Origin: a virus
Length of the DNA stretch: 30,494 nt
Reading direction: 5' to 3' (one strand)
IMG/VR virus record: IMGVR_UViG_3300021131_000037
Span: 1 to 30,494 of that record
Every line of letters starts with the position of its first letter. Position 1 is the first letter of the stretch. Under the pieces are notes generated by a model, which was given only the letters and a program-made list of their open reading frames with translations, did not search any database and was not told the DNA's origin. This document shows positions 3,228-26,325 of the stretch, one piece after another. The position numbers were made by a program, and so were the translations under genes.

Positions 3228-3965
3228 TTGAATGAGCTACACTTATTTGCAGGAGCGGGGGGGGGTATTCTCGGTGGAATGCTGCTCGGACATACCTGCG
3301 TGTGCGCTGTCGAAATCGAGCCATACTGCCGTGAAATCCTTTTGCAAAGACAGCGCGACGAAGTATTGCCGCGATTCCCAATTTGGGACGACGTGCGAAC
3401 CTTTGACGGCAAACCGTGGCACGGATTTGTTGACGTTGTTTGCGGCGGATTCCCGTGTCAAGACATTAGCACACAAAGCGCCGTGTTTGGAAATCACGCC
3501 GGAATTGACGGTAAGCGCAGCGGATTGTGGCGCGAATACGTTCGCATCATTGGCGAAATACGACCGCGTTTCGCATTCATTGAAAACTCGCCAAACCTTG
3601 TTGTTCGAGGACTCGACCGAGTGCTTTGTGACCTTGCCGCGCTGGGGTATTCTGCTCGATGGGGAATTATCGGAGCAAACGCCGCCGGCGCAGATCACTT
3701 GCGCGAACGTATCTGGATTGTTGCCGACCGTGATGGCTTCCGATTGGAAGGGCGGCACGACGGCGATTCGCAAAGACCGGGGCGACCAGCGATTAGACCA
3801 ATGGCGCGATTACGTCAAATGCAAGTTCGGACTGACTTACCCGCACCCGACGCATTCGGAAATGCGAATGGGTTGGCCCGAAAACTGGACCGACTTAAAG
3901 CCGTTGGCAACGGACAATTTCCAGCAGTGGCAGCACTCGCATGGAAAATACTTTCAGGAAATTAA
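3228..3965 (+). CDS. C5 cytosine-specific DNA methyltransferase
   Basis: Transfers methyl from SAM to cytosine C5. From TTG 3228 the 245-residue product has motif I ELHLFAGAGGGILGG (SAM site, residues 3-17), motif IV GGFPCQDIS with catalytic C77, motif VI ENSP at 119-122, motif VIII-like RERIWIVA at 159-166 and motif X LKAVGNGQFPAVAALAW near the end. The target-recognition region (about 168-215) is short and arginine-rich. No ATG precedes motif I nearby, and MNELHLFAGAGG is the usual N-terminus of phage homologues, so I chose the TTG. A run of nine G at 3257-3265 encodes the motif I glycines. The same DNA encodes another long frame (3232-3972). Probable role: self-methylation against restriction. 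Confidence 0.88.
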   Translation: MNELHLFAGAGGGILGGMLLGHTCVCAVEIEPYCREILLQRQRDEVLPRFPIWDDVRTFDGKPWHGFVDVVCGGFPCQDISTQSAVFGNHAGIDGKRSGLWREYVRIIGEIRPRFAFIENSPNLVVRGLDRVLCDLAALGYSARWGIIGANAAGADHLRERIWIVADRDGFRLEGRHDGDSQRPGRPAIRPMARLRQMQVRTDLPAPDAFGNANGLARKLDRLKAVGNGQFPAVAALAWKILSGN

Positions 3966-3972
3966 CAATTAA
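3232..3972 (+). CDS. Overprinted phage protein, second plus-strand frame over the methyltransferase
   Basis: An ATG-initiated frame of 246 residues that begins 4 nt after the methyltransferase TTG and ends 7 nt after its stop, so the two genes are almost coextensive. The product does not look like a random shadow. It contains ADSRVKTLAHKAP, FASLAKYDRVSHSLKTRQ, TLPRWGILLDGELSEQTPP, SGLLPTVMASDWKGG, HPTHSEMRMGWPENWTDL and KPLATDNFQQWQHSHG. This is the order I associate with a phage protein family usually seen beside C5 methyltransferases (LAKYDxxxxSWKT, WPRWGxMxxGE, PTPxAxDxKG, MGWPxGWTDLKPLA). The motif WTDLKPLATDNFQQW is the shifted reading of the motif X codons of the methyltransferase. Function unknown. 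Confidence 0.6.
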   Translation: MSYTYLQERGGVFSVECCSDIPACALSKSSHTAVKSFCKDSATKYCRDSQFGTTCEPLTANRGTDLLTLFAADSRVKTLAHKAPCLEITPELTVSAADCGANTFASLAKYDRVSHSLKTRQTLLFEDSTECFVTLPRWGILLDGELSEQTPPAQITCANVSGLLPTVMASDWKGGTTAIRKDRGDQRLDQWRDYVKCKFGLTYPHPTHSEMRMGWPENWTDLKPLATDNFQQWQHSHGKYFQEINN

Positions 3973-3997: not shown

Positions 3998-4783
3998 ATG
4001 AGCAACAAAAAATCAAACAAACCTGTGGTGCATCGCGGGGCGGTGGTCACGGAAACCGAGCGCGAGGAGGTGATGCAGCCGGAAACGAATCGCGCGGCGT
4101 ATCTGGCCGCGAATCCCGAAGCGAAGCGCGTTCACGAGGCGCACATCGCGCGGTTCACGGCGGGGTATCACGGTTGGCAGGGGGCGACGGCGTTTGCGGC
4201 GGCGATTCAGCGGATTCGCCAGAATCCCAAGATGGATATGGCAGCGGTGGAAAGCGAGATCACGCGGGCATTGCCGTTGCGTCTGACGGCGCGAGCGTTC
4301 GTGCTCAAGGCGGATGACGTGCGCGATTTGGGCAATATCCTGATTGAATGGCAGGAGACGTTGCCGGGGCGCAAGTTCACGCGGGATTTTTACGAGCAAC
4401 ACAAGGCGGAATTCACGGATGAAGCGGGCTTGGTGATTCCGTTTGAACAGTTGGAATGGTTGATGCGCGTGGCGCGCAGCGAGCAATCGCCGGTGGACGA
4501 TTTATTGACGGCGTGGAAGTGTCGCCAGCCGATGTTGTTGGCGCTTGGTTTGGAAGATGCGGAGCGGCCGCCGGGCAAGCCGGTGGCGCCGAGTGATCCG
4601 CTGACGCAGTTGCAGGAGATTTTTAATCCGGCGGAAATCGCGGAGCGGTGGACGGCGTTCAAGAATAATCCGCGCTACTGTCCGAATGGCGTGCTGCGGG
4701 ATGAATGGCGCGAGATGTTGGCGGAACAATGGAAGCCGGCGTTCAAGATGGTGGATGAGGTGAAGGCGGCGCTTGGGGTTTAA
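3998..4783 (+). CDS. Hypothetical phage protein
   Basis: 261 residues, not recognised. It is mainly helical and charged, with a basic N-terminus (MSNKKSNKPVVHRGAVV). The central GRKFTRDFYEQHKAEFTDEAGLVIPFEQLEWLMRV and the C-terminal NNPRYCPNGVLRDEWREML recall protein-interaction or DNA-metabolism accessory proteins, but no catalytic motif is visible. I chose ATG 3998 after an A-rich leader over an upstream in-frame ATG at 3941 inside the methyltransferase. The stop at 4783 abuts the ACACGGAT repeat. Confidence 0.6.
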   Translation: MSNKKSNKPVVHRGAVVTETEREEVMQPETNRAAYLAANPEAKRVHEAHIARFTAGYHGWQGATAFAAAIQRIRQNPKMDMAAVESEITRALPLRLTARAFVLKADDVRDLGNILIEWQETLPGRKFTRDFYEQHKAEFTDEAGLVIPFEQLEWLMRVARSEQSPVDDLLTAWKCRQPMLLALGLEDAERPPGKPVAPSDPLTQLQEIFNPAEIAERWTAFKNNPRYCPNGVLRDEWREMLAEQWKPAFKMVDEVKAALGV

Positions 4784-4812
4784 CCACGGATAGACACGGA
4801 TGAACACGGATT
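4784..4812 (+). repeat. CACGGAT dispersed repeat, three units
   Basis: CCACGGATAGACACGGATG then AACACGGATT fills the whole gap between two genes and ends at the next ATG. It belongs to the dispersed ACACGGATT/ACACGAATT family found at least seven more times in the window. Confidence 0.8.
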
Positions 4813-18296: not shown

Positions 18297-18461
18297 ATGG
18301 CGGTTGATGCGGTTCAAATGTTACCGATTCGGCTGGCCTTCGTGCCGCCCATACTTACGCCGCAACCGCGTATCGCCGCCATCCCCCAAACCAAACTTCG
18401 TTTGGAATCACCTTTCAAAGACACTAATTGCACTAATTTTCACCAATTCATTTCGTGTTAA
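18297..18461 (+). CDS. Possible small ORF running into a repeat
   Basis: 54 residues beginning MAVDAVQMLPIRLAFVPPIL, starting 3 nt after the glycosyltransferase stop. Its last ~14 codons (KDTNCTNFHQFISC) come from the dispersed ACACTAATT repeat. In favour: a TTTGACT box at the usual distance. Against: proline-rich low-complexity product and a repeat-derived C-terminus. A hairpin CCAAAC-TTC-GTTTGG lies at 18391-18405. Confidence 0.3.
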   Translation: MAVDAVQMLPIRLAFVPPILTPQPRIAAIPQTKLRLESPFKDTNCTNFHQFISC

Positions 18462-18478
18462 TTCGTGGAATTCGTGTC
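18420..18478. repeat. Inverted ACACTAATT/AATTCGTG repeat between convergent genes
   Basis: GACACTAATTGCACTAATT on the left pairs imperfectly with AATTCGTGGAATTCGTGTC on the right around a short centre, giving a ~59-bp hairpin between plus-strand and minus-strand genes that converge here. It may work as a two-way terminator. Confidence 0.75.
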
Positions 18479-18732
18479 TAGTTTCCCCCCGCAAGCCTAC
18501 GGTTGAGCCATGAATCACGTCCGGCCGCGCGTAACCGCGCCTGGCGCAATTTGCTTTCGGCGGCGACGGTTTGCCGGCACGCTGGGCAATGCAGATACGG
18601 CTTGCCCGTGTGCGGGTTCAAATCGCGCTTGCCGTGACCGCACCGACGGCACAGTCCCTCGGCCAATTTCCGTTCCGCCCACCGCTGCTGATCGCACCGT
18701 TGCTCGACAATAAGTTGTTTTTTCTTTTTCAT
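18478..18732 (-). CDS. Small zinc-ribbon protein
   Basis: 84 residues from ATG 18732. CRRCGHGKRDLN...YLHCPACRQ gives two CxxC pairs about 20 residues apart, a zinc ribbon. The flanks are basic (MKKKKQL, KLRQARLRAAGRDSWLNRRLAGG), so nucleic-acid binding is likely. It is the last gene of the minus-strand cassette. Its final codons (GGN-stop) contain a GGGGGGAAA run. The start follows AAAGTTTT. An in-frame upstream ATG at 18756 lies in the neighbour gene. Confidence 0.65.
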   Translation of the reverse strand: MKKKKQLIVEQRCDQQRWAERKLAEGLCRRCGHGKRDLNPHTGKPYLHCPACRQTVAAESKLRQARLRAAGRDSWLNRRLAGGN

Positions 18733-18742
18733 AAAACTTTTA

Positions 18743-18772
18743 GACACAGATTTCACGAATTCACACGGATTT
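18743..18772 (+). repeat. ACACGAATT/ACACGGATT repeat
   Basis: GACACAGATTTCACGAATTC then ACACGGATT. It overlaps the end of the 18753-18953 gene, encoding its last residues and stop. Confidence 0.75.
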
Positions 18773-18953
18773 CAAACCAGTATAAATCTTCCGGTCCGGC
18801 TTCGGGTTCAAGCCGTTCCCATTGCAATTCCAATTGGGCGCCGCAACCGCACGTTTTCCCCCAATTACCAGACTTGAGCAACGAATCATATTCGTGCTGG
18901 CAACCACATTGCGGACACGCTCTTTTATCGTGATAAAAAGAATCAATTTCCAT
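18753..18953 (-). CDS. Small zinc-ribbon protein
   Basis: 66 residues: MEIDSFYHDKRACPQCGCQHEYDSLL...GKTCGCGAQLELQWERLEPE. CPQC and CGCG, about 20 residues apart, form a rubredoxin-like zinc ribbon. The last residues FEIRVNS are encoded by the dispersed repeat at 18743-18772, and a second, inverted copy lies at 18955-18990, so the gene is bracketed by the two. Possible role in nucleic-acid binding or as an adaptor. Confidence 0.68.
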   Translation of the reverse strand: MEIDSFYHDKRACPQCGCQHEYDSLLKSGNWGKTCGCGAQLELQWERLEPEAGPEDLYWFEIRVNS

Positions 18954-18954
18954 T

Positions 18955-18990
18955 GGATTTAATCTGTGTTAATCCGTGGAATCCGTGTCT
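18955..18990 (-). repeat. ACACGGATT repeat, inverted copy
   Basis: AATCTGTGTTAATCCGTGG then AATCCGTGTCT. It supplies the last codons (LDTDSTD) and stop of the 18969-19517 gene. Confidence 0.75.
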
Positions 18991-19517
18991 AGTTTCCCCG
19001 CCTTGCGCTTGCCCAACCGAGCTAGGTTGCGGATTTCCCCCCGATTCAGGTCATTCAACAATGACCGATAGATTTCCCCCACGCGCGCCACCGTCGCCGG
19101 TTCATCGCGCAGGAGCAACCCCGCCTTCATCAACCGACAAATCCCCCACGCCGCCAGCGCCGGGCGACCGTCTAAAATGTTTTCAAGCTGGGCACTCGCG
19201 CCGTCCGGTTCTTCCTCGGCTGGCGATGGTGCAGGATTTCCCCCCGATGGCTGCAACGCAGTTGCCTTTCCCCCGCGCTCGGATCGCATGGCGCGCCGAT
19301 AACCGCGCTCGGCTAGATTCACCGCCGCGCTGACATTCGCGGGCGCGTGCCGCCACAGAAGGACGGTTAAATACTCGTCCGCCTCGCGGGCTAGGCCGGG
19401 ATGTTCTTCGCGCAGGACCATGATTTCCAGCAGGTCAAAATCCCCCGCTGTGCAGCCCTCGGCCACCAGTTCCCACGCCCGCGCCGCGCGCTCCGTTTTG
19501 AATTTGGATTCACTCAT
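18969..19517 (-). CDS. Hypothetical protein of the minus-strand cassette
   Basis: 182 residues from ATG 19517, helical: TERAARAWELVAEGCTAGDFDLLEIMVLREEHPGLAREADEYLTVLLWRH. The centre (about 90-115) is low-complexity P, A, G and E. The C-terminal third has GRPALAAWGICRLMKAGLLLRDEPATVARVGEIYRSLLNDLN and a basic end (LARLGKRKAGK). Six GGGGGAA-type runs fall in it. No family recognised. The stop and last residues lie in a dispersed repeat. Confidence 0.6.
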   Translation of the reverse strand: MSESKFKTERAARAWELVAEGCTAGDFDLLEIMVLREEHPGLAREADEYLTVLLWRHAPANVSAAVNLAERGYRRAMRSERGGKATALQPSGGNPAPSPAEEEPDGASAQLENILDGRPALAAWGICRLMKAGLLLRDEPATVARVGEIYRSLLNDLNRGEIRNLARLGKRKAGKLDTDSTD

Positions 19518-19527
19518 AAAATTTTTA

Positions 19528-19598
19528 GACACGAATTACACGAATTTTCACTAATTAAAAACAGCTTCGGCTTCGTGTTAATTCGTGCAATTAGTGTC
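19528..19598. repeat. Inverted ACACGAATT/AATTCGTG hairpin repeat
   Basis: GACACGAATTACACGAATT on the left, then a centre with AAAAACAGCTTCGGCTT, then AATTCGTGCAATTAGTGTC on the right. A 71-bp imperfect hairpin in the gap between two minus-strand genes, very similar to 18420-18478. Confidence 0.85.
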
Positions 19599-19933
19599 TA
19601 TTTTCCCCCGCGCTTGGGTTGCTTGCCGTTGGCGGCGAATAAGATTCCCGCCAGTTCCAGGACTTTTGCCAATTCACCGCGCGAGAAGCAATTTTCACTC
19701 AGCCCGCTCCGGCCAAATTGCAGGGCGAGCATTCCCCCATCGGTGCGATCGATCCCCACCGTGATGCAATCGCCACCATCCCCGCGAAACTCCGCGCCGA
19801 CATCCCCGCGACCGGCGGCAGGATGCGCGTAGGGAAAAGCGTAGGCCGGCAATTCCCCCTGCGTGGCGTTGTCTTTGGTCTGGAATTGCGCGGTAATAAA
19901 CTCATCGCAATCAGGTTTGAATTCGTTTTTCAT
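19598..19933 (-). CDS. Hypothetical protein
   Basis: 111 residues: MKNEFKPDCDEFITAQFQTKDNATQGELPAYAFPY, a G- and D-rich middle (GDVGAEFRGDGGDCITVGIDRTDGGMLALQFGRSG) and CFSRGELAKVLELAGILFAANG. The core looks like a small alpha/beta domain. Starts 5 bp after the upstream gene. No family recognised. Confidence 0.55.
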   Translation of the reverse strand: MKNEFKPDCDEFITAQFQTKDNATQGELPAYAFPYAHPAAGRGDVGAEFRGDGGDCITVGIDRTDGGMLALQFGRSGLSENCFSRGELAKVLELAGILFAANGKQPKRGGK

Positions 19934-19937
19934 TTTG

Positions 19938-20192
19938 TTATGCGGTTGCGGTTTTCAATGTCCCCAGCGCGGCCATGTGCGCTTGCAACTGTTCAAAAAA
20001 GTTCGGCCCCGTCAATTGCGGTTCAATTTGCTCGGTGTAAATGTCGCGCAACACGTCCGCCGGTTGCATTGTCAGCTTCCCGTTGCGTTGCTGGCTGAAA
20101 CAATAAAGGCAATGGCCGTGCTGCACCATCAAACGGCGACAACCTTTTTGGCGGACAAATTGCGCCTCAGTTTGAAAAATTTCAAAATTCAT
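19938..20192 (-). CDS. Hypothetical small protein
   Basis: 84 residues from ATG 20192: MNFEIFQTEAQFVRQKG, HGHCLYCFSQQRNGKLTMQ, VLRDIYTEQIEPQLTGPNFFEQLQAHMAALG. HCLYC could bind metal but no second pair is obvious. Leader ACTTATAATTTTATG. In-frame upstream ATGs belong to the neighbouring frame. No family recognised. Confidence 0.55.
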   Translation of the reverse strand: MNFEIFQTEAQFVRQKGCRRLMVQHGHCLYCFSQQRNGKLTMQPADVLRDIYTEQIEPQLTGPNFFEQLQAHMAALGTLKTATA

Positions 20193-20232
20193 AAAATTAT
20201 AAGTTAAAATGGATAAAGTTGGTTTATGCGGT

Positions 20233-20811
20233 TTAGCCGATATTCCCCCCGCGTGACTTGGCAATGGCGGCGCGCGCGCCGGTGATGGCTTCAAAGTCGC
20301 CGGAGCGGTCGCCGTGCTCAATTTCCATGTGGCGCAAAGCCGTTTCCAGAGCCGCCAGCAATTCCGGCGCGGCGGCAATCAAATTCAAATTTGCTGCCAC
20401 TTCGCTATGTGTCCGCACGCTGTCCGGCGTTGTATAAACCTCAATGGATTCGACTTTTGCAATCGTGGCGTAACTCTTTTCTTCGTGCCGGACAAACCGT
20501 GTTTGCACTTCGTTATTGTTGTGTTCGGCAACCCACGGCCCCGGCGTGTGGCTGGCGGTGGTCGGTTCGGCAAACTTCGCGCGCGCCTCCATCATGGCCG
20601 GAGAATTCACGCCCGCGCCCGGTATGCCGCAATTCCCCCACCGCACGTTGCCATCAAATCCCCGCGCGTAGGTGCGCGCTTTCTCCCAAGCCAAATCAAG
20701 GCGGAAGCTATTTTGCTCAATGCGCTTGCCGTTGATGCACGGAAAATAATCCGCCGAGTTCGCCGCTTTCCGCACGCTCACTTTTTGTCCGTTGATGATT
20801 TCAGTTTTCAT
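20233..20811 (-). CDS. Phage protein with TPGPW ... LIAAAPELL signature
   Basis: 192 residues. The C-terminal half carries SHTPGPWVAEHNN, then ATIAKVESIEVY, then NLNLIAAAPELLAALETAL and ARAAIAKS. This combination (xTPGPW, ANLxLIAAAPELLxALE, ARxAIAKA) is common in small early proteins of many phages, with no firmly assigned role that I know. The N-terminus adds a small domain (ADYFPCINGKRIEQNSFRLDLAWEKARTYARGF). ATGAAAACTG at the start matches several neighbours. Confidence 0.7.
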   Translation of the reverse strand: MKTEIINGQKVSVRKAANSADYFPCINGKRIEQNSFRLDLAWEKARTYARGFDGNVRWGNCGIPGAGVNSPAMMEARAKFAEPTTASHTPGPWVAEHNNNEVQTRFVRHEEKSYATIAKVESIEVYTTPDSVRTHSEVAANLNLIAAAPELLAALETALRHMEIEHGDRSGDFEAITGARAAIAKSRGGNIG

Positions 20812-20853
20812 TTTATTTTGTTCTTTCGTTTTTGGTTGTTGTTGTTGATTTCC

Positions 20854-20871
20854 CCCGCCACGACTGGCGGG
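20854..20871. other. GC hairpin upstream of the TPGPW gene
   Basis: CCCGCCA-CGAC-TGGCGGG, a perfect 7-bp stem with a T-tract (TTTTTT) after AAAG on the plus-strand side. In the direction of the minus-strand genes no T-run follows, so for them it is a leader hairpin. It could terminate antisense plus-strand transcription. Confidence 0.5.
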
Positions 20872-20881
20872 AAAGTTTTTT

Positions 20882-20911
20882 ATCTGTGTAAATCCGTGTT
20901 AATCCGTGGTT
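20882..20911 (-). repeat. ACACGGATT repeat, inverted copy
   Basis: ATCTGTGTAAATCCGTGTT then AATCCGTGGTTA between the ligase-like gene and the hairpin. Confidence 0.75.
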
Positions 20912-21572
20912 AAAACTGCACCAGCCATTCCCGCGCCGGTTGCGGTTGCCGGATTTTGCCACTGTCCGTTAAATTCATGCCTTCCACGCGGATCAAACTA
21001 CCCGAGCGCAGTTGGTCGCATTTCCCCCCGCGCAGTGTCACCTTGCCGCGATCCGCGCCGGTGTCCGCGTCCACGATGTTGACGCTCTGCGTTCCCCCAG
21101 CGTGCCCGGTGACGCGGCACAGCCAGATTCCCCCGCGCTTGCACGCTTGCATGTCGTCAAAGTAGGTTGCGCCCGCATCTTTGCGCACAACGCCCTCGCC
21201 GCCCGCCGCCAGCACGCGCGCCAAGAGTTCCCCGCCGTGCGGTGACGATGGGCAGAGCGGCAAGGCGTATTTCCCCGCGAGATCGCGCGCGATATGCCAG
21301 CGCCGCGCCGCCGGTTCAATGCGGATGTCGCGCCCGTTGACCGCCAGACAATCCCACACCACAAAAACGCGCGCGCCACGCCACGCTTGCCCCGGCAAAT
21401 TGTTTTTGATGGATTCCCCCGCAAGGACATCCCCCCCGAAAGTGACGGTTTCAAAATTGCCATCTAACTTCTCTTGATAAATCGCCCCATCTTGTCCCCA
21501 CGCGCGCCCCTGCTCGATGGTGACTAAAACTTTTGGCGGGTGGATTGAATAATCTGTTTGTGTCAGTGTCAT
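20910..21572 (-). CDS. ATP-dependent DNA ligase-like nucleotidyltransferase
   Basis: 220 residues from ATG 21572. Motif I is EKLDGNF with lysine K35 (KxDG, adenylated in ligases). Motif III is RVFVVWDCLAVNGRDIR (68-84), motif IV GGEGVVRKDAG (124-134), and the end LIRVEGMNLTDSGKIRQPQPAREW resembles the ligase OB-domain pattern VxxxxxTxxGxLRxPxFxRxR. The usual arginine after KxDG is replaced (GNFETV), and motif V lysines are replaced by GGIWLCRVTG, so activity is uncertain. It would join nicks or adenylate another substrate. The start is downstream of a shared box at 21578-21595. Confidence 0.75.
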   Translation of the reverse strand: MTLTQTDYSIHPPKVLVTIEQGRAWGQDGAIYQEKLDGNFETVTFGGDVLAGESIKNNLPGQAWRGARVFVVWDCLAVNGRDIRIEPAARRWHIARDLAGKYALPLCPSSPHGGELLARVLAAGGEGVVRKDAGATYFDDMQACKRGGIWLCRVTGHAGGTQSVNIVDADTGADRGKVTLRGGKCDQLRSGSLIRVEGMNLTDSGKIRQPQPAREWLVQF

Positions 21573-21577
21573 AATGT

Positions 21578-21595
21578 TTTTGCGTAGGTTCGCCA
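21578..21595 (-). promoter_or_regulatory. Shared leader box TTTTGCGT-N4-TCGCCA
   Basis: Plus-strand TTTTGCGT-AGGT-TCGCCA, ending 5 nt before the ligase-like start (coding-strand reading TGGCGA-N4-ACGCAAAA). Same spacing as at 25371 and 25597. Confidence 0.6.
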
Positions 21596-21630
21596 ACTGG
21601 TTTTAAGTGTCGTCAAAAAATGGTTGAATG

Positions 21631-21909
21631 TCAAGCGCAACAATTTTCCCCCGCTTCGGCTTGTTTCTCCGTCTCAATTTGAACATACAAGGCCGCAACC
21701 GGCGCGGACATTTCCCCCGAATGATTCAAGCCAAAAGCTAGGGCATCATCCGCGCGTTCAAACATCCCGCGCGCAACCAAAAATCCACCGTCGCGGACAT
21801 CGCACGCGAATTTTGACGGGTGCGGATTGCCGCACGTTTCCGGGTTCAAGATGGAAAACTTGATTGCGCCGGCGACCTTGGCATATTGCAAAGCGTGGTT
21901 GCGTGTCAC
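21631..21909 (-). CDS. Hypothetical protein, GTG start overlapping stop
   Basis: 92 residues. The start GTG (21909) overlaps the TGA of the LPD29-like gene as GTGA, indicating coupling. Sequence: VTRNHALQYAKVAGAIKFSILNPE, SKFACDVRDGGFLVARGMFERADDALAFGLNHSG, PVAALYVQIETEKQAEAGENC. A small alpha/beta fold is likely. No family recognised. The longer in-frame ATG at 21996 would overlap the upstream gene extensively and is less likely. Confidence 0.6.
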   Translation of the reverse strand: MTRNHALQYAKVAGAIKFSILNPETCGNPHPSKFACDVRDGGFLVARGMFERADDALAFGLNHSGEMSAPVAALYVQIETEKQAEAGENCCA

Positions 21910-22778
21910 AAAACCACCTCGCTTTCTTTGCGGTGCATCAAACTGGAAAGGTATTCGTCCGCGCCTTGCACGCGGCATCCGTTGATCCAGCGCCAAAGGG
22001 CATTTTCATCGGCGAAAGTTTCCGGCACGGCCTCGCCGTATTTCCCCGCGATTGCCCGCGCCAACAGTTCCGCATGGGCGAAAGATAATTCGCGGCTGGC
22101 GGTGACGTATTTTGCGCCATAACGCACGAGCACGCAATCCGGCGCGTGCGCTGAACCGATTTGCTCCGGGCAACTGCCCGCGCTCCCGCCAGTGTCTTGG
22201 GAATGCGCCAGCGACATTTCCCCATCGCGCGAAAGCCAACGGCGTTTGCCGTATTCCATATCAATCATGCCATCAAATCCGGCAAAGGAAAATTCCCGCG
22301 CAATTTCATTCACCGTCGCCGACAACGGGCCATCCGTCCAACTCACGCGCACCGAACATCCGCCCGCGTAATTTTCCGAAGTCACGGAAAATTTTACTTC
22401 GGGAAAATGCTTTTGCAACGTCGCCCGCAAACAAATCGCGGTTTCAGCGGCGGAAATATAATCATTGCCCGCGCGCACTTTGTTCCAGACATCCAACGGC
22501 GTGCGGCATTTGTCCACTTGCCGTTGCGCCGCGTGCGCTTGCTTGGCCGTTTCCCGTTCCCGCACGGCGGCGGCATGGCTGGCGATGCGCGCCCGCGCTT
22601 GCGCCTCATCGCGGAAAGAATAAAACCAATCCGGCTTGGCGCGCTTGCCGGAAAAGGCTTTGGCGGTGATTTTGCCCGCTGTTGGAATGGTGAGATAAGC
22701 CACGGCGGAACAATCCGCCGCGCGAATCTCGATTGAATCTTTGGGAATGTAAAATTCCCTTGTGAATGTCATTTTCAT
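21906..22778 (-). CDS. Polyvalent-protein-like protein with LPD29-type domain
   Basis: 290 residues. About 108-176 reads ISAAETAICLRATLQKHFPEVKFSVTSENYAGGCSVRVSWTDGP followed by FDGMIDMEYGKRR. This is the LPD29 pattern (large polyvalent protein associated domain 29: AxxIRxxLxxxFPxxKFSVxxxxyxGGxSixVxWxDGPxxxxVxxxxxxFxxxxFDGMIDM). LPD domains occur in phage and plasmid proteins thought to act early in the host. The C-terminal part (YGAKYVTASRELSFAHAELLARAIAGKYGE) is unassigned. Shared leader box (variant) at 22783-22800. Confidence 0.72.
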   Translation of the reverse strand: MKMTFTREFYIPKDSIEIRAADCSAVAYLTIPTAGKITAKAFSGKRAKPDWFYSFRDEAQARARIASHAAAVRERETAKQAHAAQRQVDKCRTPLDVWNKVRAGNDYISAAETAICLRATLQKHFPEVKFSVTSENYAGGCSVRVSWTDGPLSATVNEIAREFSFAGFDGMIDMEYGKRRWLSRDGEMSLAHSQDTGGSAGSCPEQIGSAHAPDCVLVRYGAKYVTASRELSFAHAELLARAIAGKYGEAVPETFADENALWRWINGCRVQGADEYLSSLMHRKESEVVL

Positions 22779-22782
22779 TGTT

Positions 22783-22800
22783 TTTTTCGTTTCCTCGACA
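22783..22800 (-). promoter_or_regulatory. Shared leader box, variant TTTTTCGT-N4-TCGACA
   Basis: Plus-strand TTTTTCGT-TTCC-TCGACA, 4 nt before the LPD29-like start. It differs at two positions from the other three boxes, with the same N4 spacing. Confidence 0.45.
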
Positions 22801-22889
22801 GGTTGCGGGATAATCCCCGCGAATGTTTAAGAGTCTAATTGATTTTATCTAAAGCGCAACAATTATTTTTGGAAAGGTGAATTCATTTT

Positions 22890-25361
22890 TCAGGCCGCGC
22901 AAAACGCGGTGGAATTCCCCCCGCCCGTGTCCCCCGCCATCAGCGCCGCCAGCGTTGCCCCAGCACGCTCGAAAATGTCCCGTGCGCTGCCCGGTATCGG
23001 CGGCAATACCACCGGCCCCGTGGCTTCGCGAAACGGGAAATTGCCATTGATAATTTCCCCCCGTTCATCCCGGCGAATGATCCACACCACCGGCGGCGCT
23101 TTGGGCGTCTCCGTTGCGGGCATAGTTTCAACGGGCGCGGCATCCTGGCCACTTTCCCCCCGCACACTACCCGCCTCGATTGACTTTTGCCAGCCGTCCG
23201 CAAATTTGCTTTCCAGTTCAGCGCGGGCAATCTCGAACGGCTTTTCCGGCTCCGGTAACTCAGCCACCAGTGGCGACACCTTTGCCAACTTTGCGGCGCG
23301 CGTGCTGGCAACCTTCGCGCGGGCGATGTCCCGGCAAACTTGCCCAAAATCCCCCCGCAAAGGCATCGCCCAGCCCCCGCGCGCGGGCGCGGTTGCGGTT
23401 ACGCTTTCCGGCTCCGGTTGCGGCGCGGGCGTGGCAACTTTGCGCGGCGCGGGATTGTCAACGGTTGCCACAATCAAACGAGCGGGCGCAATGCCGCTTT
23501 TTTCCACAATATCGGATTTAATCACTTGCGCGGCGCTGGGGACATTTTCCCCCCGCAAGGGTGTTTCTACGCTGGCAACCGGCGCGGCTTTCCGTTGCGC
23601 TTGGCTGGCCTGAATTTTGGATAACCATTTTTCGCAATGCTGGCGGTCCCCAGCGGCCCGCAAGGTTTCCCCCGTTGTCCCGCGCGTGTCGGCTGATTCA
23701 ATCACCATAAACCAAGCGGCCTTGGTAGGATGCGGCACAATAGAACATTCCCGCGTGACGCATTCAACGCGCGCCGGGCGTTGTTCCTCGGCGGTTTCAT
23801 CATTGGCAACCGGCGCGGGCGCGGATGTTCCAACATTGTCAGACGTGACGGCGCTTTTCCAGTCAGACGCAAAACTTGCCACAATGCGGTTTTCCCGTTC
23901 GCTTGCCGTTTCAATTTTTGCCGGTTCAATAGCGGGCGCGGGCGCGCTCGTTTCATTGGTTGCAACTTCGTTTCCCCCCGCAACCGGCGGCGCAATGTTG
24001 CCAACGGGGAAAGCGGGGTGGTTTGATTCTAAAATATGGACCGTTGCGCCCTGGGCGTGTGCATTGTCAATTTGCCGTTGCATAAAATCCGCAACGGGCG
24101 CGCAAAGCATGGCCGGTATTTTTTCGCCGTTCGCTTTCGTGGCGGAAATGACAATTGCACCCCCAGCGGCGGCCGCTTTCGGTTGCGCTTTGCGGCGCGC
24201 GGTGATCGCGGCAACGTAGCTTTGCGCAAAAGCGGCTTTCTTTTCAGCATACCCCCGCACGGCAATGCGGGCGCGGCTATACGGGCGAACATCCATCGCC
24301 GCGCCGATCCGCGCGAAGTAAAGTTTTTCGCCGCCCGCGTGCCGGGGCAATTCCAGTTTTTCGCAATAGCTGGAAAACTCTTTTAGAATTTGCGCCCGCA
24401 AATTGTTTTCCGCCGTGGCAACCAAGTTTTTCAGGGCGTCAAATTTCGGGCCGTAAGTTTCGCTGGGGCGGATATAATCAGTGCGGCCCATTTCCGCATT
24501 TTTTTGGGCGGCATAATCTTTTATTGAAAGTCCCGCGCGCTTGGCGCAACGTAAATCATAGCCGTCCCATTTCATTTGCGGCTTATAGGCGGCAAGGTTT
24601 GAGCGTGCTAGAATAATCGCGCCGTGGCAATCAAACCGCTCCGTGCTGGGGATGTCGAGCGCGCCAAGGCGGGAAATGGTATCGCCAAGGCAAGGAATAG
24701 CCGCCATGGGATTTTTCAGCGCGGCGCGCAACTGGCGGCGCGCGGTGACTATCGCGCGCGCAGTTGCAATCGCGGGCGCAATTCCCCCCGCAACCGTTTC
24801 AAGATTGGCGCAATGTTCGCGGGCAATCACTTTCAAATTTTCTTTCGCCTGATTCTCGGCGGCGCGCAACTTGGCAAACTCTTTCGCGGCTTTCGCGGCC
24901 TTTAAGTTTGCGCTGAGATTTTCCATTCCCGCCGGTTTTTCAAGTTGGAATTCCCCCGTGTGTTTGTCGTCAAATCGGATCGCGGGAACATCTGCCAGCA
25001 ACGCTCGCCACGTTTCGCAGTCAGTCCCGAACCGCATAACCATTTCAGCACGTCCCCCGAACTTGGTGACGCCGATAATTTTGACAGCGCCCTTGTCAAT
25101 TTCCGCTTGCTGGCAATTGTCGGAAAATTCCAACTCAAACCGCGTATCACTGGGGAAAGCCGCAACCCATGTTTTCAGCTTGCCAACGGGCAAAAGCGCG
25201 GTGTTCAAAACTCCGTTCTGGAATTGTAACCGCATAACCTTGTCGGATGTTACCGCGTCAGTGTCGCTGGGGGTGTAACCTTTGCCGCGCAAGTCGCCCG
25301 CGTAAAGCGTGGCAAGTTTTTCGGCCTCAATAATAGTATTTTTTGCAATGGTAGTTTTCAT
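22890..25361 (-). CDS. Very large cassette protein of unknown function
   Basis: 823 residues, not recognised. Three parts are visible: an N-terminal ~1-340 region with well-mixed composition (LPVGKLKTWVAAFPSDTRFELEF, and a helical stretch ENLSANLKAAKAAKEFAKLRAAENQAKENL at about 147-176), a basic central region to ~450, and a long A-, P-, E- and T-rich C-terminal half. The C-terminal half contains two similar segments, ENRIVASFASDWKSAVTSDN (about 490-509) and ELESKFADGWQKSIEAG (about 715-731). Eighteen C-run copies of the polar word lie in it in two codon registers. It starts ATG 25361 after a shared box. A virion-associated or polyvalent injected protein is one guess, without motif support. 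Confidence 0.75.
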   Translation of the reverse strand: MKTTIAKNTIIEAEKLATLYAGDLRGKGYTPSDTDAVTSDKVMRLQFQNGVLNTALLPVGKLKTWVAAFPSDTRFELEFSDNCQQAEIDKGAVKIIGVTKFGGRAEMVMRFGTDCETWRALLADVPAIRFDDKHTGEFQLEKPAGMENLSANLKAAKAAKEFAKLRAAENQAKENLKVIAREHCANLETVAGGIAPAIATARAIVTARRQLRAALKNPMAAIPCLGDTISRLGALDIPSTERFDCHGAIILARSNLAAYKPQMKWDGYDLRCAKRAGLSIKDYAAQKNAEMGRTDYIRPSETYGPKFDALKNLVATAENNLRAQILKEFSSYCEKLELPRHAGGEKLYFARIGAAMDVRPYSRARIAVRGYAEKKAAFAQSYVAAITARRKAQPKAAAAGGAIVISATKANGEKIPAMLCAPVADFMQRQIDNAHAQGATVHILESNHPAFPVGNIAPPVAGGNEVATNETSAPAPAIEPAKIETASERENRIVASFASDWKSAVTSDNVGTSAPAPVANDETAEEQRPARVECVTRECSIVPHPTKAAWFMVIESADTRGTTGETLRAAGDRQHCEKWLSKIQASQAQRKAAPVASVETPLRGENVPSAAQVIKSDIVEKSGIAPARLIVATVDNPAPRKVATPAPQPEPESVTATAPARGGWAMPLRGDFGQVCRDIARAKVASTRAAKLAKVSPLVAELPEPEKPFEIARAELESKFADGWQKSIEAGSVRGESGQDAAPVETMPATETPKAPPVVWIIRRDERGEIINGNFPFREATGPVVLPPIPGSARDIFERAGATLAALMAGDTGGGNSTAFCAA

Positions 25362-25370
25362 GTTTTTTAG

Positions 25371-25388
25371 TTTTGCGTTAATTCGCCA
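25371..25388 (-). promoter_or_regulatory. Shared leader box TTTTGCGT-N4-TCGCCA
   Basis: Plus-strand TTTTGCGT-TAAT-TCGCCA, 9 nt before the start of the 823-residue protein. Confidence 0.6.
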
Positions 25389-25415
25389 ATGGATTTTAGT
25401 TTGTGGTTTGTGTGG

Positions 25416-25592
25416 TTATTTTACGGCGTGAAAATGTTTGCCGATTGCCGATTGAAAATAGAATTCGCTTTTGCCCGTATTGGTGTTCAAAAGCTCGCAA
25501 AAAAGCTCCGCGACGAATTGTCGCTTTATGTTTTGCTTAATGACTTTAAAAATTCGCCCGCTTGTGTGCTGAACCATGATTTTAGTTTTCAT
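25416..25592 (-). CDS. Small hypothetical protein, first gene of the cassette
   Basis: 58 residues from ATG 25592: MKTKIMVQHTSGRIFKVIKQNIKRQFVAELFCELLN, ending SAIGKHFHAVK. Basic. The start ATGAAAACTA repeats the start of the neighbouring genes (MKTT, MKTE), and the shared box lies 4 nt upstream, which is the main reason to accept it. An in-frame ATG at 25658 is an alternative. Function unknown. Confidence 0.5.
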   Translation of the reverse strand: MKTKIMVQHTSGRIFKVIKQNIKRQFVAELFCELLNTNTGKSEFYFQSAIGKHFHAVK

Positions 25593-25596
25593 TTTT

Positions 25597-25614
25597 TTTT
25601 GCGTTATCTCGCCA
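25597..25614 (-). promoter_or_regulatory. Shared leader box TTTTGCGT-N4-TCGCCA
   Basis: Plus-strand TTTTGCGT-TATC-TCGCCA, 4 nt before ATG 25592. A looser relative, TTTGCGT-N6-TCGCCG, lies at 25979-25997 in the intergenic region. Confidence 0.55.
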
Positions 25615-25930
25615 GATATTGCAAGCAACATCGCCCGCAACTGAAAAGAGTATTGCACACACTAAAGCGCAACACAATAGAAAAATAAAAAAACTTTTGC
25701 GGTTAACATCATGCGCCGTTATACCGCTCGCCCGCAGGCAAGTTATAACGCACCGCCGAACGTAAATCCGCGCGCCAAGCTGGGCAGGGCAGTCCGCAAA
25801 GCTGGTAACGTGGCAACATCGCCAGCGGATCGCGTAACGCTCGCCGCTAACCTTTAGCGCGTGCGGATCGCCAGCCCGTAAAGCTAACGCATAACGCAAC
25901 CACAGCGGCTAGAGTTATAAAACCGCGCCG

Positions 25931-25950
25931 CGCTCCGTTATAACGGAGCG
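25931..25950. repeat. Perfect 20-bp palindrome
   Basis: CGCTCCGTTATAACGGAGCG equals its own reverse complement. A likely dimeric-protein operator or origin element. The 14-bp palindrome TACTTTATAAAGTA follows 7 bp later (25958-25971). Confidence 0.85.
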
Positions 25951-26152
25951 GCAAAGCTACTTTATAAAGTAAATACGCTTTGCGTTATCGTTCGCCGCTA
26001 AAGTAAAGCCACTAACCGCCCACCATACCCCACGCCGAAAGGATTCTTTTAGCCAGAACCGCCTAGATGCTAGTGACGGAACGGCTTTGTTTCCTTGTGA
26101 ATGGTGTTTTTTTATCAAGTTAAACATTTGTTTTTGGTGATTATCGCCTTTG

Positions 26153-26172
26153 TTTGCAATGGGTTGGTGATG
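26153..26172 (+). repeat. Direct repeat, copy 1
   Basis: TTTGCAATGGGTTGGTGATG, 18 of 20 identical to the copy at 26227-26246, 74 bp away. Confidence 0.7.
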
Positions 26173-26226
26173 AGTAATGCGGTTGCGGGGTGGTGGTGAT
26201 GCGTTTTCCTGTGCAAATCGCTAATG

Positions 26227-26246
26227 TTTGCAATGGTTTTGTGATG
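26227..26246 (+). repeat. Direct repeat, copy 2
   Basis: TTTGCAATGGTTTTGTGATG, paired with 26153-26172. Together they lie about 80-170 bp upstream of the first tail gene and may bind its activator. Confidence 0.7.
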
Positions 26247-26303
26247 CGGTGGCTGAAATTGTTGTGTGGAAACATTGTTTTTTTCAAGTCAACAGGGTGT
26301 GTT

Positions 26304-26310
26304 TTTGACT
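26304..26310 (+). promoter_or_regulatory. TTTGACT box
   Basis: TTTGACT 15 nt before ATG 26326. Confidence 0.4.
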
Positions 26311-26325
26311 GATTGGGGTTGTTGA

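Follow-up and report, generated by a model that had tools for sequence, protein, structure and literature searches.

Why should a virus repeat one seven-base word along a single operon, always on the same strand, and hardly anywhere else in its genome? The question is raised by IMG/VR record IMGVR_UViG_3300021131_000037, the whole of which (30,494 bases) was analysed and is called the window here. Ten consecutive minus-strand genes at 18,478–25,361, called with a simple in-house caller and referred to as the cassette, carry the word GGGGGAA, which appears as TTCCCCC on the plus strand. We find that GGGGGAA is a selected tag that is polar with respect to transcription, and not a codon, peptide or host-wide habit.

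A strand-locked word in a single operon

An exact search of the window revealed 26 copies of TTCCCCC on the plus strand between positions 18,483 and 24,957. The original prediction, which was made from the letters alone, had the strand and the clustering right, but it counted 25 copies and placed them about two bases off; the intergenic copy that it put at 20852 exists and begins at 20,850. As it had stated, there is no inverted copy inside this range, and the sole other copy lies at 1645 on the opposite strand. Altogether 27 copies of TTCCCCC/GGGGGAA compare with 4.55 ± 2.1 (maximum 10) in dinucleotide shuffles of the window. For the 7.1-kb region an order-1 Markov model gives an expectation of 1.5 copies, so that the earlier figure of 0.4 was too low. 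Shorter words show the same asymmetry, with strand splits of 33:0 for TCCCCC and 31:2 for TTCCCC in the 7.1-kb region, compared with 0:1 and 0:6, respectively, in the other 23.4 kb.

All copies in the operon read in the direction of transcription (26:0), and all except the one at 20,850 are coding. The 25 coding copies use three codon registers (GGG-GGA-A in 9 cases, NNG-GGG-GAA in 11 and NGG-GGG-AA in 5) rather than the two first described. Since A or T stands directly 3′ of 24 of them, the fuller word is GGGGGAAW. Five coding copies fall within the last 36 nt of a gene, where 1.4 would be expected. The words do not form a tandem array, and the sense strand of the divergent promoter region (25,362–26,325) holds no GGGGA.

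The excess survives codon, peptide and composition controls

When the cassette was subjected to 1,000 synonymous-codon shuffles, 4.1 coding copies of GGGGGAA were expected and at most 10 were seen, against the 25 observed (0 of 1,000 shuffles reached this number); under this null, no other 7-mer is as extreme as GGGGGAA (z 11.9). The excess also persisted when the next base was fixed as well (5.5 expected, maximum 13), when only glycine codons were shuffled (6.8 expected, maximum 15) and when a codon model was conditioned on the previous base (5.6 expected, maximum 11). The choice of glycine codon illustrates the effect. Of 16 glycine codons that precede GAA in the cassette, 13 are GGG, compared with 4 of 22 in other genes; before GGA, the numbers are 10 of 12 and 0 of 6. 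Before GCN, glycine is almost always encoded by GGC. Peptide constraint is thus insufficient, as had been argued, and a peptide or codon explanation is excluded by these nulls, by the use of three registers and by the non-coding copies. The tests that had been named as able to refute the original prediction thus leave it standing.

The excess does not extend to the rest of the phage or to the candidate host. The plus-strand genes of the same phage hold 1 copy versus 1.8 expected, which agrees with the earlier view of the word as polar and cassette-specific. The suspected host group is Verrucomicrobia, whose chromosomal genes held 6 copies versus 10.4 expected; GGG precedes GAA there in 17 of 200 cases, and whole-genome counts likewise gave a low word density. 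A host-wide word is therefore not supported by this candidate host, whose link to the phage is itself uncertain because the intergenic repeat that they share occurs in other phyla too.

Related phages carry the core in their own spelling

Relatives were reached via two cassette proteins, a ligase-like protein and one with the polyvalent-protein domain LPD29, and L005 turned up through the major capsid protein as well; having been found through shared genes, they are not a random sample. They comprise L005/L015, L001 (G001), L097/L130 (G032), L131 (G342) and L129 (G341), and are joined by common terminase, portal or other proteins. No match was found for the terminase in a named-phage collection or for the ligase alone in viral contigs, and bacterial genomes searched with a three-row alignment of the ligase gave none either.

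Across six phages (the window and relatives), the reverse-strand operons contain NGGGGAA 88 times in sense and 3 times in antisense orientation. The sense density of this word exceeds that of the rest of the same genome, counted per strand, 34-fold in the window, 28-fold in G032, 50-fold in G342, 43-fold in G341 and 13-fold in G001. Compared with synonymous shuffles, GGGGAA is in excess in the window (30 vs 10 expected), L130 (15 vs 7.5), L131 (9 vs 2.8) and G341 (13 vs 4.7), with 0 of 300 shuffles reaching the observed number in each case; the 5 copies of L001 versus 2.8 expected are not significant. All three codon registers are enriched. Gene-by-gene tables place the excess only in the reverse-strand operon, other genes being at or below expectation. 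Four distant relatives thus tag a reverse-strand accessory operon likewise, which goes beyond the original prediction.

The base before the core differs between phages. It is G in 26 of 31 cases in the window, T in 17 of 22 in G341, T in 7 of 11 in L131, and G or C in 14 of 18 in G032. L131 contains GTGGGGA 8 times versus 0.6 expected, and L130 uses GCGGGGA plus GGGGGAA. The check proposed earlier, a search for the word at new positions in relatives, had a positive outcome: the minus-strand cassette of L097 has eight copies of GGGGGAA and no inverted one, and its ligase is only 44% identical to that of the window. Judged from the sequences compared, GGGGGAA is the window phage's spelling of a family-wide GGGGAA core with a phage-specific base before it, a point that had been missed.

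Non-coding GGGGA in the tagged operons of these phages is found 20 times in sense and 5 times in antisense orientation; in G341 the ratio is 9:0, part of which may belong to uncalled small genes. Neither protein sequence nor codon choice accounts for this sense bias. G341 carries its tag in a different reverse-strand operon and has none in the ligase gene, so tagging goes with the operon rather than with a gene family. The tagged operon of L131 (3836–10871) is also rich in another word, CGCCGCC (31 vs 6.5 expected under synonymous shuffling).

Genes and sites of the tagged operon

The features of the window operon are as follows, (−) denoting the minus strand.

18478–25361 (−): tagged reverse-strand operon of 10 genes, flanked by the head genes and the following block of plus-strand genes
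18478–18732 (−): gene for a small protein resembling a zinc ribbon (weak Pfam match); L005 has a homologue
20233–20811 (−): gene for a small phage protein of PHROG family 1273 (PHROG match)
20910–21572 (−): DNA-ligase-like gene (KLDG and GGEGVVRK motifs; marker of related phages)
21906–22778 (−): LPD29 (polyvalent-protein domain) gene; GGGGGAA 0, GGGGAA 2
22890–25361 (−): gene for an 823-amino-acid protein, first gene of the operon; 8 words, no family found
18483–18489 (−): GGGGGAA, final codons of gene 18478–18732
18856–18862 (−): GGGGGAA in gene 18753–18953
19035–19041 (−): GGGGGAA in gene 18969–19517
19074–19080 (−): GGGGGAA in gene 18969–19517
19238–19244 (−): GGGGGAA in gene 18969–19517
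19268–19274 (−): GGGGGAA in gene 18969–19517
19603–19609 (−): GGGGGAA, final codons of gene 19598–19933
19732–19738 (−): GGGGGAA in gene 19598–19933
19853–19859 (−): GGGGGAA in gene 19598–19933
20243–20249 (−): GGGGGAA, final codons of gene 20233–20811
20633–20639 (−): GGGGGAA in gene 20233–20811
20850–20856 (−): GGGGGAA, intergenic, roughly 40 nt before gene 20233–20811 begins
21022–21028 (−): GGGGGAA in the ligase-like gene; the same Gly-Gly-Lys reads GGCGGCAAG in L005
21092–21098 (−): GGGGGAA in the ligase-like gene; the L005 counterpart is GGGGGCACG
21128–21134 (−): GGGGGAA in the ligase-like gene; requires an amino-acid change relative to L005
21414–21420 (−): GGGGGAA in the ligase-like gene (Leu-Ala-Gly-Glu); single position in common with G032
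21646–21652 (−): GGGGGAA, final codons of gene 21631–21909
21712–21718 (−): GGGGGAA in gene 21631–21909
22915–22921 (−): GGGGGAA near the end of the 823-amino-acid gene
23055–23061 (−): GGGGGAA in the 823-amino-acid gene
23154–23160 (−): GGGGGAA in the 823-amino-acid gene
23547–23553 (−): GGGGGAA in the 823-amino-acid gene
23667–23673 (−): GGGGGAA in the 823-amino-acid gene
23972–23978 (−): GGGGGAA in the 823-amino-acid gene
24782–24788 (−): GGGGGAA in the 823-amino-acid gene
24951–24957 (−): GGGGGAA in the 823-amino-acid gene; first copy along transcription

Of the cassette genes that lack GGGGGAA, the largest is the LPD29 gene, which is conserved in a wide range of phages; the word is scarcely reachable there by silent change alone (0.03 expected). 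The ligase-like protein gave weak matches to ATP-dependent DNA ligases, and its AlphaFold model was poor (predicted local distance difference test, pLDDT, 60) and was left unused. Neither the 823-amino-acid protein nor gene 20233–20811 found a match in viral contigs, and no family was matched in an Rfam search.

Individual sites turn over

Only one word position, at Leu-Ala-Gly-Glu, is common to the ligases of the window and L097. Orthologous genes show how sites come and go. The cassette proteins of G032 and G001 are 53–64% identical, and their aligned codons reveal both silent gain or loss of words (GGG-GAA vs GGC-GAA; GGG-AAA vs GGC-AAA) and change by replacement (Gly-Glu vs Arg-Glu). Substitutions of several, mixed types make or break words. 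In these alignments, the turnover looks like the outcome of selection for density and not of a single mutational process.

What reads the word?

The original observation is confirmed and proves stronger than stated, and its interpretation is partly supported: the strongest class still standing among the options that it listed is a signal at the level of RNA or transcription, and the Chi, primase and zinc-ribbon readings are weak. We tentatively favour a model in which GGGGGAA/GGGGAA is a selected operon tag that a trans-acting factor recognizes in the transcript, with stoperator-like silencing at the DNA level as the next candidate. The factor would most likely be a sequence-specific RNase or RNA-binding protein. 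It would single out the mRNA of the tagged operon, for example for rapid shut-off, and spare the remaining mRNAs of phage and host, from which the word is missing; the changing first base would track the changing specificity of the reader. The high density of so short a word suits an RNA reader, and the combination of a short, dense, intragenic word with the lack of a copy in the promoter region slightly favours one. The tagged operons encode ArdC anti-restriction proteins, a clamp-loader-like AAA protein, LPD29, DUF932, and an AAA plus DUF2201 metallopeptidase/VWA gene, types that may be expected to act soon after entry. In a broader form, which we regard as possible rather than probable, the phage group labels the transcripts of one operon with a density-based RNA address code across the coding sequence, in which a strand-locked word is re-spelled in each phage and a dedicated reader distinguishes that mRNA from the other mRNAs of phage and host.

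A precedent is RegB of phage T4, whose targets in early mRNAs are GGAG sites flanked by A-rich sequence on the 3′ side (PMC3014915). Both systems employ a short G-rich purine word with an A-rich 3′ side in one class of phage transcripts, and the RegB-type confinement is seen here, as the excess is restricted to the reverse-strand operon of tagged phages. However, the core is GGGGAA and not GGAG (GGAGGAA is absent from the cassette), and RegB sites lie unpaired at translation starts whereas the present words are mostly intragenic and show no excess of accessibility. No RegB-like protein was found.

Several further results weigh against an RNA reader. No reader gene was identified. The words are no more single-stranded than in word-fixed shuffles (0.331 vs 0.350). 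The operon is presumed to be early from its gene content (ArdC, polyvalent domain, clamp loader), and the genes for the helicase loader, SSB and RusA are untagged and on the opposite strand. The tag is also dispensable: L005 has no copy of GGGGAA, and the 6 copies in 3.7 kb of G001 are not significant compared with shuffles. A zinc-ribbon protein of the cassette, one of the readers suggested originally, has become a weaker candidate because L005 has a homologue of it without the word.

The tag matters because it is a clear nucleotide-level signal that extends across coding sequence; what is conserved is its density rather than the place of single sites, and it is re-spelled between relatives, which is the footprint expected of a co-evolving reader. 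Discovery of that reader would show how a phage singles out the DNA or RNA of one operon, and would offer a model for specificity from dense weak sites. The data are also a warning that such signals can dominate codon usage in phage accessory genes.

The closest competitor, which we consider rather doubtful, holds that a repressor or silencer binds many asymmetric, transcription-oriented DNA sites and blocks elongation through the operon in the prophage, the spellings having diverged along with the repressors. Repressors of cluster A mycobacteriophages bind 20–30 such sites, whose motifs are similar and not identical between phages (PMC6550527, PMC9283540). Like these stoperators of L5, Bxb1 and TipsytheTRex, temperate phages, the window words are asymmetric, related from phage to phage and oriented with transcription (26:0 in the cassette, 88:3 for GGGGAA in six phages). 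Site number (26), orientation and drifting spelling therefore favour a repressor; moreover, the phage carries an integrase, and this model does not require unpaired RNA. However, the consensus is about 8 nt here (~GGGGGAAW) and 13 bp there, and cluster A sites lie mainly in short intergenic and promoter regions whereas 25 of the 26 window copies are coding, densely set in one operon only, with one intergenic and no promoter-linked copy seen (no GGGGA on the operon sense strand of the divergent promoter region). Pfam, PHROG and NCBIfam scans of most window proteins, many of which got no assignment, returned no repressor match.

It is unlikely that the words are a passive compositional habit with no reader at all, left by the mutational bias or codon context of an operon that has a different origin. 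GGG is indeed more frequent in the cassette than in other genes and the excess rises gradually from shorter words, but it persists when codon use, the following base or the preceding base is held constant; in addition, non-coding DNA shows the sense bias, spellings differ among phages, and the word-creating substitutions are of mixed types.

Chi, KOPS (FtsK-orienting polar sequences) and primase-type sites are typically short, G-rich, polar words. The window words share this shape and, like Chi (RecBCD/AddAB) and KOPS, are over-represented. Nevertheless, polar DNA-level sites of this kind are quite improbable, since the words are confined to an operon, end where the genes switch strand, run with transcription and show no enrichment in the chromosomal genes of the candidate host, although the real host may differ.

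We give even less credence to a translation-level signal such as internal Shine-Dalgarno-like pausing or frameshifting. GGGGG could pair imperfectly with the anti-Shine-Dalgarno sequence, and two words of L130 directly precede overlapping ATG starts, but the use of all registers, the non-coding copies and the phage-specific first base would be unexpected, and the leaders of both gene classes appear free of Shine-Dalgarno sequences.

Avoidance of type III restriction by one-way sites, as in phage T7 with its 36 EcoP15 sites all in the same orientation (PMC3874151), can hardly apply: the 26 cassette sites do share one orientation, but the copy at 1645 is inverted, avoidance generates no excess such as that seen here, and coding sequence would in any case hold few sites in the opposite orientation (0.1 expected).

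Rho-type antisense termination at UUCCCC on an antisense RNA was considered separately and gained no support; the antisense C and G contents of the cassette equal those of other genes, so there is no C-over-G bubble.

Similar cores in bacteria and other sequence elements

A triple-word search of 320 bacterial genomes yielded mainly repeat arrays and no clear tagged prophage. In the searched genomes of a Verrucomicrobia order, L193 (1390–1640), L192 (1375–1551), L175 and L180 have arrays of ~21-nt units with the core GGGGGAAA or GGGGAAA. The core is that of the phage word, but the period is a regular 21 nt, and the L193 array looks non-coding. L178 of the same order (1501–1753) has ~41-nt tandem units, GGGGAAAGTTGCCTCGGTAAACGTAACCGAGAGAGAAGTGC, with more copies on other contigs.

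The leaders of nearly all window genes, in both classes, have no obvious Shine-Dalgarno sequence, and ATG is preceded by an A-rich stretch or TTTT. A weak match to phage DNA methyltransferases (PHROG 1008) was found at 3232–3972 of the window, with a homologue in G341.

Between cassette genes there are intergenic elements of the type TAGACACGAATTACACGAATT...AATTCGTGTCTA, partly inverted repeats, at 18420–18481, 18735–18780, 18957–18991, 19518–19600 and 20874–20915, and also at 4781–4811. Some gene stop codons (TAG) sit in an arm of these elements. Similar ones are dispersed in the genomes of Verrucomicrobia, Flavobacteria, Scalindua and others. Where the window has these TAGACAC elements, L005 (10200–12590) has different intergenic repeats (AGGCTAAAGGCTGAAGGCTAAAG).

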